Origin: an uncultured Fibrobacter sp.
Lineage (GTDB): Bacteria; Fibrobacterota; Fibrobacteria; Fibrobacterales; Fibrobacteraceae
Direction: 5' to 3'
Assembly (NCBI GenBank): GCA_946413655.1
Contig: CAMKLO010000012.1
Span: forward strand, 1 to 64,000
DNA length: 64,000 nt
This document shows positions 11,763-46,245 of this stretch, piece by piece. The notes under the pieces are model-generated. The model ran no database searches, was not told the DNA's origin, and was given only the letters and a program-made list of their open reading frames with translations. How positions within the stretch are numbered: the first letter of the stretch is position 1; each line of letters opens with the position of its first letter. The position numbers and the translations under genes are program-made.

Positions 11763-11777
11763 TCATTGGTCTATACC

Positions 11778-19041: not shown

Positions 19042-19160
19042 GTGGTTAGTGGTTAGCAGGCAATAGGAAATTGGAAGGATGGCGTCATTCTGAGCCATTT
19101 GATGGCGAAGAATCCAGTGACCTTTACTGGATCCTTCCACCTACGGTGTCAGGATGACAA
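19042..19160. repeat. heptad run plus GTCATCCTGA-type element
   Basis: 19042-19074 reads in 7-mers (GTGGTTA, GTGGTTA, GCAGGCA, ATAGGAA). It is followed by CATTCTGAGCC...AATCCAGT and ACTGGATCC...TCAGGATGACA, two opposed copies of the dispersed element also found at 25983, 33856 and 38676. Confidence 0.7.
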
Positions 19161-25852: not shown

Positions 25853-26387
25853 CTTAAAATCTCCGGGTGAAAACCTACTTTAAAAAATGTTAGCACAAAG
25901 ATAGTAAAAGTTTGAAAGTTGTCAAGGGGGGTTTTAGACGAGAGACGAGAGACGAGAGACAAAAGACGAGAGATTAAAGCATTTCGTCATCCTGAAGGGA
26001 GCGCATGCGACCGATAGGATCCAGTGAAGGTTTGGGGTATGAGGTATGGGCTCGGCACTGCGTGCCTTTGGGGTATGAGGTTATTGTAATTAGAAATGCC
26101 CAAAGCGAAGCGTGCTCATCGCCCAAAGTGCGAAGCACGACCTCATACCCCTAATACCTATTACCTAACACCATTCTCTAAGTGAGATTATCGCTTCGCT
26201 CTAATCTCAACTGCTAGGCTCGGAAAGTCTCGAAAAGCGAATGAAGCAGTCAAAAAATATTTGACTATTTCTGAGCTCAAGAGACAACGCTTTAGCGTTA
26301 AATAGGCTTGCAAGCAATCCTGCTTCACTCGCCTTACGCAGTTGTCTAAGCTCTAAATTCCAAGCTCTAAGTTCTATATTTACCACC
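25853..26387. other. gene-free stretch with promoter of rpsT and stacked repeats
   Basis: No credible gene. It holds the rpsT upstream region, the GACGAGA heptads (25937-25978), a GTCATCCTGA/GGATCCAGT element (25983-26030) and GGTATGAGG/GCGAAGCG hairpin elements (26035-26160). A GAGATTA...TAATCTC hairpin lies at 26184-26208. A larger inverted arrangement of GAGACAAC (26279-26286) with GTTGTCT (about 26340) encloses smaller palindromes such as AACGCTTTAGCGTT. Confidence 0.6.
25937..25978. repeat. GACGAGA heptad array
   Basis: Six 7-mers: GACGAGA three times, GACAAAA, GACGAGA, GATTAAA. A second array of the same unit is at 43073-43107. Confidence 0.92.
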
Positions 26388-31242: not shown

Positions 31243-31935
31243 TCAAACGACAAACAAGGCAATTGCAAGCAAGATAAAAACGCAACCGCTGAACCAGTTG
31301 AGGTTGCGGTTTGCTTTTGGCGAATTTAAAAGATATTTCTTGACGGTCCCCGCCAAAAGTGCAATCGAGCCAAAGACAATCATCGTCGCCACGATAAATT
31401 CAGCGCCAAAAATCGCCGTCTGCAAACTCGGGTGAATCGGGCGATCCAAGCGCACCGCAGGCGGAATCAGCGAAAGAATAAAGAGAATCACCTTCGGGTT
31501 CGTCATGTTCATGATGACTCCGCGCAGGTAAAGCTTGCGCGCCGAAGGCTGGCCGAGTTCTGCGGGCCTGGATCCTTCGGGGCTTTGCCCCTCAGGATGA
31601 CGTGATGGAGACTCAGGATGGCATGAAGCCGCCGAGCCCGTTTTGTCGTCTAAATCCACAGTTCCAGCGCGGACTTGGAAACTTTTGTACGCGAGGTACA
31701 GCAGGTACGCTGCGCCAAGGCACTGAATCACAAAAAACGCCATCGGGCTAGCGGCAATCAAAGCCGACACCCCCAGCACCAGAAGGCAAATCTGCAAAGC
31801 AATCCCGGTACAAAGTCCGAGAATAATGCAAAATCCGAGACGCGCCCCGTACGTCGCACTCTGGGCAAGCACAAATAAATTATCCGGTCCAGGAGCAATC
31901 CCGATTACAAGAGCAGCAATGAAGAATTCTAGCAT
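31243..31935 (-). CDS. LysE/RhtB-family exporter with in-frame repeat insertion
   Basis: A 230-residue membrane protein with six hydrophobic segments and the family N-terminus LVIGIAPGPDNLFVLAQSATYG. It would export amino acids or related metabolites. Between the third segment and QPSARKLYLRGV, about 25 residues (CHPESPSRHPEGQSPEGS and neighbours) are encoded by a dispersed intergenic element (31568-31615, GGATCC...TCAGGATGACG) read in frame. Family members are usually near 205-210 residues, consistent with this added length. NPKVILFIL after it is the conserved continuation, so the reading frame is intact and the insert falls in a loop. Confidence 0.9.
   Translation of the reverse strand: MLEFFIAALVIGIAPGPDNLFVLAQSATYGARLGFCIILGLCTGIALQICLLVLGVSALIAASPMAFFVIQCLGAAYLLYLAYKSFQVRAGTVDLDDKTGSAASCHPESPSRHPEGQSPEGSRPAELGQPSARKLYLRGVIMNMTNPKVILFILSLIPPAVRLDRPIHPSLQTAIFGAEFIVATMIVFGSIALLAGTVKKYLLNSPKANRNLNWFSGCVFILLAIALFVV
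31568..31615. repeat. GTCATCCTGA/GGATCC element inside the LysE gene
   Basis: CTGGATCCTTCGGGGC and GCCCCTCAGGATGACG flank a TTT loop as a hairpin. The same layout with a CACCCCTTGCGGGG hairpin occurs three times at 38676-38818, and related forms elsewhere are intergenic. Confidence 0.85.
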
Positions 31936-33855: not shown

Positions 33856-33895
33856 CGTCATCCTGAGTGTAACGAAGGATCCAGTAATTTTTGGC
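33856..33895. repeat. GTCATCCTGA/GGATCCAGT element
   Basis: GCGTCATCCTGAG...GAAGGATCCAGTAA between mraY and its terminator, followed by a heptad run at 33901-33928 (GTAGTTA, GCAAACA, GTAGGCA, GTAGAAA). Confidence 0.75.
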
Positions 33896-38466: not shown

Positions 38467-38627
38467 ATCGCATTCTGCCAGTCATGCCTCTTACGTCATT
38501 CTGACGACCGCAGGGAGGAAGAATCCAGTAACGTTCTACACTGGATGTTTCTCCCCGCAAGGGGGACCATGGATTACTAAGGGCTAAAGCCCAAGTAACC
38601 AAAGTGCGTTGCTCAACATGACGAAAA

Positions 38628-38675: not shown

Positions 38676-38818
38676 CTGGATCCTTCACCCCTTGCGGGGT
38701 TCAGGATGACGTAGCAACCACCGCAATGGATCTTTCACCCCTTGCGGGGTTCAGGATGACGTAGCAACTACCGCAATGGATCTTTCACCCCTTGCGGGGC
38801 TCAGGATGACGCAACAGC
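38676..38818. repeat. three 50-nt tandem copies of the GGATCC...GGATGACG element
   Basis: Units start at 38676, 38726 and 38776 with exact 50-base spacing. Each contains TGGATC(C/T)TTCACCCCTTG, a CCCC-TTG-CGGGG hairpin, TCAGGATGACG and CAAC. The third runs into the stop codon of the CotH-family gene. Confidence 0.93.
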
Positions 38819-41800
38819 TATCGCTCAGGACGAAGGACAGTCGCTTTCTTTCCGTAGTACGCGCCGCGGGCGTTGTTCGTACCATTCACGCGACGGCCCT
38901 TGAGGTCGAACTTGCCGTGGTCGTAGTTCATCTTGATTTCACCCGTGCGGGTGTTGAAGTGCCCGATAACGGTCGTATGTTCCGCATTGTCATCGTCGCC
39001 ATCGCCATTATCCACAATAATGCTCATGAACTCCGGCAGTTCCGTTTGCGTAACGGAAGGACGCATCACGTAAGCGCCGTTCGCGCGCACGCCCTGCGCC
39101 TTTGGCACAACATCAGACTTGACGAGGTAAGCGCGCATCGGGCGAATCCAAGCGCCTACGCCGACCTTGACGAAATCACCCACCTGAATTTTGTTGTCGT
39201 CAGAAGAACTTGCGGCAAAGCCATAAGCAACGCCCAGTTCCGGGTCACCACTTTCCCACTTCTTGTATTCCCAGGTGCCGCGGAATTCCCATTCCCATTC
39301 AGGATACTTCGTGACGGCTTCGGTAGTTGCCTTGAGCGTCACTTTGCCATCCACCTTGAATTCAGGTTTGTTCATTTTCACCAGATACGGAGTATTCGCA
39401 CTTATTGTAGTATGTTCATACTCCTTATCTTTACCATCAGCATCCTTTATGACACCTTTTTCAGCCCACAAGACTTTCATCTTGACAGCGTCCTTGCCAT
39501 TCTTGTCCTTACCAATGCCATTATAGTAGAGCACAGCTTGAAGACCCGAAACGTTTGCCGTATTCACATCAAACGGCAAAACGATTGTCGAATAAGCGCC
39601 GACCGGGAATGCGCGGTTATACTCAACGGCAACGTCTTTAATTTCTCCCGTAATTTTGACAGCATCCGTTTTACCATAAGTTCCGTCGATGACGGCGCGC
39701 GTGCCGCTATTGTATTCGCGAATCTGCACGGCGGCGTATTCTGTCGTCTTCGGATAGACAAACGGACTTTCTTCAATATCGTTGTCATAAACAACATCGC
39801 CGATGGTGATTTTACCCTCTCTAGAACCATCAGTACCTTTACCTATACTATAAGGCTCATATTCACCCTTTGTTGCAGTAACCTTAGTCACGTTATCCGT
39901 AATCGTGATGTTACCAACAGTTCCTTCATAACCGCCACCGATACCAGCAGCACTAGAACCACCTGTAGCGTCAACAGTTCCTCCATTAATAATGATGTTT
40001 CCAACTGTTCCTTGATAACCACAACCTATACCAGCAGACCAAAAACCGCCCTCAGCAGTAACAGATCCTCCACTAATCACAATGTTTCCACATTGGGAGT
40101 AACCACAACCTATGCCAGCTGCATTACCATTGCTACTTGCATTAAGGGAACCCGTTCCCGAAATGGTAAGCGTATAATTCTCCGACACATAAATACCAGG
40201 ATAAGCGCTATGAAAACCCTTCACAATATTATCGCCTTCCAGAATAATATTGCAGTCACCCAAGCAAGAGATACCCGCCCATGGGTATTGTTCTTCATTA
40301 ACACCATTGATGGTCACACCATTGAGCGTCACCGTAGCGCCGGCCGCAATCGAGATCTTGTAATTGCCAAGTGTACCCGTCAGCACTTCTCCATCTACAG
40401 CCACATATTCGCCATCAAGAGTCCCCAAATTCGTCAATTTCTCTACATACGAATTTACAGTTTGCACCTTGTTCACCAAGGATTGTGTCAAGAAGGCGAC
40501 ATTGCCGTCAAAACTAAAGTCCTTCGTTTCCACGTAATCCCTATGGGCGCCCCACCTCAAGCTATCCAGTTTCGCAGCGACCGCCAAGACGGCAGTCATT
40601 CTCTCAATTTCATTAGATACGGCAAGAATATTTTCCATTGTAGCGAATTCGTTCCATAAGTCCTTCACGGTTTGAATAAACTTCGGGGACTTGAACAATG
40701 CGTTGTAATAAATGCTCGTATCGAGCCTGACGGGAGCGTCCGTTGTCGTCGCGCCCGCATCAAAGTCCCAAACCGGACCGGCCTTGAACTCATCATGGGT
40801 TCTTCCTTCTTTCTCATCTTTATACTGATAAGTAAAATAGGCGCTCTTGGGTTCATTCAATTCCGTATTGTCCATGATTTCGTTGATGAGCCAGAACTTC
40901 GCCCAGGATTCGACATCAATGATGTCCGCATAAGATTCATCGGGGGCGCTGCAATTATTAGTGTTCACTTTGCAATTATTATTTGTTTCATAATCCGGAT
41001 AGAGTAAATTTTCCAAAGTGGCAATCTTATTCTGGAAGCGTTCCAGACGGGCGGTGCCGCCGCTTGTCATGGCGTTATCATTGTCCTCGTCATAGAAATA
41101 GTCGTCATTCTTGATCATGTAGGGCATCTTACGAATCGGGGTCGTGAACTTGACGACTTCATCGTAATGCGAGTCCATCTCGATCAAGAGGTCCTTGTCA
41201 TCTGTGTCGAACATTTCATCTTCGCCATCATAAATGTTTACACGTTTTTTATCGACCTTGATGGCTTCACCCAACCAGTAAAGGCCACGATAGACGCCGT
41301 TGAAAACAAGGTTCACAAACTCTCCACGGACCGTATATTTCATTCCAAGCTTTTTGCTCAAGTAGAAAGCCATGTGGTTTTTCAAGAAACTGTTGTCCAG
41401 GTAGTTGGCTATCAGCACCCAACGTTTATGCTTGGGCATATCCATAATCTCGGTCTTTTCATTCAACTTAAGCGCATAAGGCTTCTTGGGTTGCTGCCAG
41501 GTCGAATTGCCACGACCGCGAATGCTCGTTGTCAATTCATTAAAATTCCATTCAAAATCTTCGGCATCTTTCAGCTTCAAGTTCGTTTTTTTGGTCCAAT
41601 CTTCCTTTGAGGTGATTTCAACACCCTTGGGAGTATCCACGTACAGCACCGGGAGTCCCGTGTAGGCTACCGCCGCGACATCCGAGGTCACGCTTTTTTC
41701 ACCGACCGACGCGACACAGAAATAGTAGCGGACTCCTTTTTCGCTAATGGCTCCTGTTTCGAACGAGGATTCATCAGCCCCTTTGAGCGCTACAGCATTT

Positions 41801-46199: not shown

Positions 46200-46245
46200 T
46201 AAACTTGACTGGATTCTTCGAGGCTCCGCCTCTCAGAATGACGAA
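46200..46245. repeat. GGATTC...CAGAATGACG element
   Basis: GACTGGATTCTTCGAGGC-TCC-GCCTCTCAGAATGACG; a variant of the dispersed GGATCC...GGATGACG family with its own hairpin. Confidence 0.75.

Follow-up and report, generated by a model that had tools for sequence, protein, structure and literature searches.

How does a palindromic element that is scattered through the genome of a rumen bacterium come to lie in frame within an intact transporter gene, and what could have carried it there? The question is raised by a LysE-family gene in the window, by which we mean the whole stretch of 64,000 nucleotides from an uncultured Fibrobacter sp. analyzed here (Table 1). The product matches Pfam LysE PF01810 over residues 12-228 of 230 (profile match, E = 1.2e-35), and its open frame (31243-31935) contains CGTCATCCTGAGGGGCAAAGCCCCGAAGGATCCAG, the minus-strand sequence of 31602-31568. 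The original prediction of a dispersed palindromic element, inserted in frame in this gene, is borne out by the intact 230-aa frame and by 152 strict copies in the genome. The extent it gave, 31568-31626, takes in a whole element at 31568-31602, while the remainder holds a half copy, a 5′ arm at 31612-31626 that precedes the whole element in the reading direction; in one relative (G069, L035), three such arms stand in tandem in the LysE linker. The element, which we call R1, carries a CGTC tag, an outer stem (ATCCT/AGGAT), an inner stem (GGGGC/GCCCC) and a CCA(G) tail, with a tandem G.A mismatch (2x2 internal) separating the outer stem from the inner one. The DNA hairpin has a folding energy of -8.1 kcal/mol (z -2.7), and the DNA and RNA folds alike consist of a 5-bp stem, the 2x2 mismatch and a 5-bp inner stem. 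The peptide that it encodes is hydrophilic (CHPESPSRHPEGQSPEGSRP), and in the AlphaFold model residues 92-126 have a pLDDT <50 between flanking helices at 64-87 and 132-144, in agreement with the predicted placement between membrane helices. The predicted gain of about 25 residues is also close, as the linker has 49 residues here and 25 in a near relative (G067, L076), a difference of ~24; compared with the shortest orthologue linker (20), it is 29 residues longer. That the protein tolerates the insert can be seen from the intact gene and from a dN/dS of about 0.02-0.07 outside the linker, where the gene is strongly constrained. Rfam gave no match at the element and one sub-threshold chance match nearby, and a literature search with the element's own sequence returned only papers unrelated by title.

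Table 1. Features of the window that bear on the LysE insert and on other copies of its family.
Feature	Position	Strand	Basis
LysE-family transporter gene, intact frame, 230 aa	31243..31935	-	Pfam LysE PF01810 and genus orthologues
Variable linker of 49 codons separating two predicted helices (SFQVRAG...PSAR)	31537..31683	-	orthologue alignment and AlphaFold
R1-type CGTC-tagged REP, 35 nt, HPE frame, within LysE	31568..31602	-	
Outer stem 5′ arm (ATCCT) of LysE R1	31594..31598	-	folding
Outer stem 3′ arm (AGGAT) of LysE R1	31572..31576	-	folding
Inner, hypervariable stem of LysE R1, 5′ arm	31587..31591	-	folding and core comparison
Inner, hypervariable stem of LysE R1, 3′ arm	31579..31583	-	folding and core comparison
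Partial tandem copy of R1 5′ arm in LysE	31612..31626	-	21-nt spacing = 7 codons
Head-to-head dimer of R1 REPs with outward tags, intergenic	19084..19158	19084-19117 +, 19127-19158 -	
Variant REP (GTCATCCTGAAGGGAGCGCATGCGACCGATAGGATCCAG) adjoining GACGAGA array	25986..26024	+	
R1 REP, intergenic	33857..33884	+	
R1 REP, intergenic	38495..38528	+	
Three R1 REPs in array, 50-bp period	38676..38826	-	
R1 REP, outside recognizable genes	46209..46242	-	

The LysE insert belongs to a dispersed family. Within the window, TCAGGATGACG occurs 12 times with at most one mismatch, against 0.87 expected, and none of 100 shuffles reached 12. A strict pattern (TCATYCTGA-N6-36-GAAGRATCCAG) finds the 152 copies in this genome where its reversed control finds none, and a relaxed pattern finds 188. 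Seven strict copies fall in the window, and that in LysE is alone in lying in a recognizable gene, with one more in a 94-aa chance frame, so that the element is, as predicted, otherwise intergenic here. The relaxed pattern detects R1 in 79 of 80 Fibrobacter genomes (range 0-243 copies, median 38.5) and in 7 of 87 other searched genomes of the phylum. Counting 30 loci together with the 7 window copies, 5 of 37 REP copies are in frame in recognizable genes, namely one in LysE, two in an HrpA-like helicase gene, one in Dus and one in a TatD-like gene, and the eight close pairs among the listed places comprise four head-to-head (HH), one TT and three HT.

Comparison of the copies indicates what the family conserves. 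Among 20 copies of one length, the outer-stem pair 5/27 is always C-G or U-A, and 35 cells are changed on both sides, against 11.2 after shuffling (0 of 500 shuffles as high) and at most 10 when the partner is slid by 1-3 columns. Across 83 distinct inner cores, taken from 94 of the listed places after two overlapping long readings and four neighboring copies had been set aside, a mean of 2.80 contiguous base pairs form from the outside in, compared with 1.11 bp for chimeric halves and 0.57 bp for shuffles. In essence, the inner helix is free in sequence and constrained in pairing, as its base-pair covariation demonstrates. The tag is CGTC in 27 and TGTC in 8 of 38 copies from this genome, its first two bases being unconstrained; a CCA tail is present in 38 of 38, in loci that were fetched with a pattern ending in CCAG, and the stem starts with A-T and T-A pairs in 20 of 20 copies, where the search pattern itself demanded these bases. 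Copies beside the GIY-YIG genes described below mostly have a CTA tail.

These traits resemble those of the super-family of CGTC-tagged REPs described by Di Nocera et al. (2013, PMC3733652). The two have in common a CGTC/TGTC tag, many copies, in-frame intragenic copies and no Y1 link, and R1 may also share the AT-starting stem, the CCA tail and the head-to-head pairs of the super-family. Its four described families, CGTC-1 to CGTC-4, have uninterrupted 8-9 bp stems and 4-5 nt loops (PMC3733652), whereas R1 has a 5-bp stem, a tandem G.A and then the hypervariable, covarying inner helix. R1 therefore appears to fit the super-family but none of its four described families. The super-family includes Rickettsia RPE-4 and RPE-6 (PMC3733652), which makes the earlier comparison with in-frame palindromic elements of Rickettsia an apt one. 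The string "Fibrobact" is absent from the main text of that paper (PMC3733652), and the association with a GIY-YIG gene is added here. The insert is thus very probably one copy of a lineage-specific Fibrobacter family of CGTC REPs (R1) that now sits, and is kept, in the disordered linker of LysE; it would be kept there because an insert of this length and phase does not disturb the reading and because a hydrophilic peptide is tolerated in the linker.

Whether the insert is peculiar to this gene copy was examined across the genus. Matches to LysE were found in 63 of 80 Fibrobacter genomes, and 59 orthologues from 59 genomes were aligned, after dropping fragments from G052, G068 and G075 (L093-L097) and the sole match in G041, a 35% paralogue. 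Linker length ranges from 20 to 79 codons. With a detector of fixed limits for R1, R2 (GTCATYCTGGA...GATAGRATC), R3 (GTCATYCCCG...CGGGRATC) and heptamer arrays, REPs of the R1, R2 and R3 types are detected in 9, 3 and 6 of the 59 linkers; GACGAGA arrays occupy 10 and TTCGGAA arrays 7, and at least one repeat is detected in 31. REP matches in shuffled linkers numbered 0 of 1180 in one run and 1 of 1180 (an R3) in another, and stretches from the rest of the gene gave 0 of 590. R1 is read in the HPE phase in 7 orthologues and in the VIL phase in 2 (L048, L087), with a weak additional case in L037 (three substitutions), while R3 is in the opposite orientation every time. The LysE linker is, then, repeatedly occupied by different repeats, in more than one frame and orientation. 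Many Fibrobacter orthologues lack the insert, as do the two homologues from other phyla, which have short linkers; the outcome that would have counted against the earlier prediction, one insert shared by every LysE orthologue, did not occur. R1 is not ancestral to LysE.

The linker changes rapidly within a gene that otherwise changes little. Outside the linker, the gene of this genome (G000) differs from those of six relatives by a dN of 0.036-0.082 and a dS of 0.87-1.69. G076 and G077 are closer still (dN 0.002, dS 0.079 outside the linker), with R1 in the former and a plain linker in the latter; here the entire linker has been swapped, not merely interrupted. On a tree built from linker-free LysE, the presence of R1 takes a minimum of 7-8 changes, with gains and losses not separated and many forks open. 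The claim that the element can move is upheld in part: its scatter and its repeated presence in different forms agree with movement, but among the LysE orthologues no target-site duplication and no exact or clean empty site was found for R1, and the G076/G077 linker was exchanged whole. One might suppose that the linker peptides are selected for LysE function, for example through length tuning, as all 59 orthologues keep the linker open and in frame. This is highly improbable, given that near-identical LysE proteins differ in the sequence and length of this peptide and even in whether they have it; L049, L063 and L083 have linkers of 54, 32 and 26 codons in proteins that are otherwise identical.

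A second question is whether the linker elements descend from one old, diverged insert or from repeated insertion. In a 15-member LysE clade, remnants such as AAGGATCC.GTAAAGTCTA lie downstream of different elements in several members, and these shared remnants suggest one old R1 within that clade. A parallel exists in Rickettsia, where CGTC/ATGAC-ended hairpins likewise occur in frame and orthologues carry different elements near one place (PMC3733652); for R. japonica, in which different RPEs occupy one place in orthologues, both hot spots and one old insert were considered and left open (PMC3767692). For the Fibrobacter linker as a whole, a single old insert is improbable. Its occupants include R1 in both the HPE and VIL phases, elements in opposite orientations, three intact REP types and unrelated heptamer arrays, and some relatives have linkers of 20-27 codons without any element. 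The presence of heptamer arrays, two phases and both orientations in one linker sets Fibrobacter apart from Rickettsia and favors repeated occupation over one diverged insert. Such linkers would look like hot spots mainly because only there would frame-keeping insertions survive.

LysE is one instance of a wider pattern, in which several unrelated repeat types use the same linkers. Dus was matched in 78 of 80 genomes and HrpA in 79 of 80, and the best-ranked 30 of each were used. Among these, the Dus linkers contain R1 in 2, R2 in up to 9, R3 in 8, heptamers in up to 5, or no repeat, although some of the REP matches sit at the detector limit of two substitutions, and the R3 detector is imperfect in that it matched conserved codons distant from the linker in 3 of 30 Dus genes; in L152, the R2 match overlaps the R1 of that locus. 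The repeat-free Dus linker measures 23 codons (L165, L170, L173). In the HrpA linkers, R1 and R3 each occur in 5 and heptamers in up to 11; for both genes, 600 shuffles gave no match. The linkers of Dus and HrpA are therefore also repeatedly and variously occupied, in more than one frame and orientation. One Dus linker (G069, L155) holds a longer, R1-like element in frame with an extra hairpin (ACTAGGGACTTCAGTCCCTTAGTAGAG), and a sequence similar to its 3′ part precedes GIY-YIG genes in L285, L292 and L294. A TatD-like protein (L029:627-1616) ends in a C-terminal run of SGMTSSEE-type repeats, for which REP-like tandem units seemingly code.

About ten tandem arrays with a 7-bp period lie in the window (at 11774, 13686, 14613, 25936, 28600, 31939, 32034, 43072, 48555 and 62735), with units as different as TACCACC, AACCACT, CCTACAA, AGACGAG, TAGTTAC, TAGGTTA, CTAGTAA and CTAACCA, and they prefer period 7 whatever the unit. 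In the genome as a whole (contigs C1-C32), 6 of 36 GACGAGA arrays are within 50 bp of a strict REP. GACGAGA arrays and REPs are also neighbors within the linkers of HrpA, Dus and LysE, and in LysE linkers the heptamer arrays change mostly in 7-residue steps.

What, then, spreads R1? The CGTC REPs are apparently without a dedicated transposase, according to the main text of PMC3733652. A RAYT or another Y1 (IS200/IS605-like) transposase, as is thought to move GTAG REPs, would be one candidate, since the hairpin-with-tag layout of R1 is like theirs and Y1_Tnp (PF01797) occurs in 27 of 80 Fibrobacter genomes. The R1 tag, however, is CGTC and not GTAG, no Y1 transposase was found in the genome studied here (88% complete), and among eight Y1 loci examined none had a full R1 and one had a variant CGTC hairpin ~150 nt downstream. 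R1 density is also similar in genomes with and without Y1 (13.0 vs 12.1 per Mb, p 0.63). Searches of the genome and the genus, the flank check and the copy-number test thus gave no support to Y1 or RAYT as the mobilizer of R1, and we regard it as very unlikely.

A different enzyme came to light beside the repeats themselves. In G007 (L212:9659-10032), two R1 REPs with their tags outside enclose a 94-aa frame (L212:9709-9993) that matches Pfam PF01541 GIY-YIG at 60.7 bits (cut-off 22.6), and its stop codon overlaps the edge of the right-hand REP. The same REP-nuclease-REP cassette occupies this place in G055 and G073 and is absent in G015, where loss is as possible as absence before insertion because CAGGATGACA remains at the cassette junction. 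GIY-YIG relatives occur in 77 of 80 Fibrobacter genomes. Thirty loci were examined for flanking REPs, and 40 more with a looser detector. Among the 30, 15 are bracketed, with a CGTC REP upstream on the plus strand and another downstream on the minus strand, 8 have a REP on one side only, 2 on both sides in the same orientation and 5 none, while 0 of 3023 random boxes in the same loci showed such a bracket. When the ranking is cut at the 20 top-ranked single-domain genes, a cut chosen after the table was seen, 14 are bracketed head-to-head and all 20 have at least one REP. These 20 fall into six location groups by flanking sequence, four of which include a bracketed unit. No REP flanks the 21st locus (L297, 59% identity), and the lower-ranked, more distant relatives have mixed flanks. 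R1 density is not clearly raised in the genomes of the top 20 loci, at 16.9 per Mb vs 11.0 in the others (p 0.085, without kinship correction), so that its correlation with the bracketed nuclease is weak. A further point against the link is that the genome studied here, with its 188 relaxed R1 copies, has a best match only 45% identical (C14:284-559), with CGTC-like hairpins on both sides that are of another sequence and not R1. The single-domain GIY-YIG nuclease is, on these sequence associations, a candidate mobilizer of R1.

We consider it nearly an even chance that R1 owes its spread or maintenance to small single-domain GIY-YIG nucleases whose genes lie between copies of these hairpins. 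Such a nuclease would recognize the single-stranded form of its own REP hairpin, as might be exposed on the lagging strand, and would nick or cut it. With another copy as the template, repair would then convert cores, add REPs or insert a REP-nuclease-REP cassette into the break. This model would account for core swaps with kept outer arms, for pairs with tags outside and for scattered copies that lack an enzyme. The arrangement would recall that of RAYTs and GTAG REPs, where a small gene for a nuclease or transposase likewise lies among hairpin repeats, and would differ in its enzyme (GIY-YIG vs Y1) and its tag (CGTC vs GTAG). In a 2025 paper, Ssn GIY-YIG nucleases reportedly cut single-stranded copies of a genome-wide repeat (NTS) in Neisseria. 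The Ssn system reportedly resembles that of R1 in that a single-domain GIY-YIG nuclease is tied to a genome-wide repeated sequence, and it may partly anticipate the GIY-YIG link.

REPs and heptamer arrays could also spread with no mobility enzyme at all, through ordinary recombination, gene conversion between copies and replication template switching, with hairpin cores exchanged from copy to copy. At L215:14110-14145, for instance, G007 and G055 share outer arms and flanks while the inner hairpin core is swapped; the intergenic place L212:1337-1372 is taken by another REP type in G055 and by a heptamer-like array in G015 (relatives L234, L237, L243); and whole LysE linkers have been exchanged between relatives. 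Enzyme-free spread has perhaps one chance in three of being the explanation, but it leaves unexplained both the tight head-to-head REP bracket around the GIY-YIG genes and the hundreds of scattered copies. Across the L215 place and its relatives (L247, L253, L254, L263 and L271), which have the same outer arms and flanks, the core of G055 is completely different from that of the others.

The GIY-YIG association also extends beyond the phylum. A tblastn search found 36 plasmid records with a GIY-YIG relative, many from Rhizobiales and sphingomonads and others from Azospirillum, Novosphingobium and Neisseria, groups named for CGTC repeats in PMC3733652. Ten of these loci were fetched with short flanks, together with one Neisseria record, and 12 with long flanks (24 kb). 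Because background matches on plasmids were frequent with a looser hairpin detector, the 12 loci were scanned with a strict one. In four of the 12, CGTC hairpins in head-to-head orientation then enclose the GIY-YIG gene within 150 nt (Rhizobium CIAT894, Shinella WSC3-e, Shinella PSBB067 and Neorhizobium EC2-8), against 57 of 22832 random boxes; an upstream CGTC hairpin on the plus strand is present at 7 of the 12, and the other 5 have none upstream. In the one Neisseria stretch fetched, 15 CGTC hairpins surround the GIY-YIG relative. The dRS3 repeats of Neisseria (CGTC-1 in PMC3733652) are thus like R1 in being CGTC hairpins found around such a gene, but have another sequence and form dense arrays instead of a single bracket. 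Taken broadly, CGTC REPs may be the ends of a compact mobile cassette of ~380 bp (REP - single-domain GIY-YIG - REP) that occurs in Fibrobacterota and, in a looser form, in Alphaproteobacteria and Neisseria, and from which enzyme-less hairpins would spread and repeatedly rewrite disordered linkers in frame; this is a tentative proposal to which we give somewhat less than an even chance.

The wider pattern beyond LysE, the shared linkers and the candidate enzyme are what the present analysis adds to the earlier reading. If the GIY-YIG link is true, a single small protein and a single oligonucleotide would be enough to test what moves CGTC REPs, the gene-invading Rickettsia elements included. 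The linkers themselves amount to a natural experiment on selfish hairpins as a source of new protein sequence, with one linker followed through many close species and through several element types, frames and orientations. In a plasmid of Planktothrix agardhii (L350), a GIY-YIG relative around which no CGTC hairpins were detected lies between an MmeI-type restriction gene and the DISARM gene drmA.
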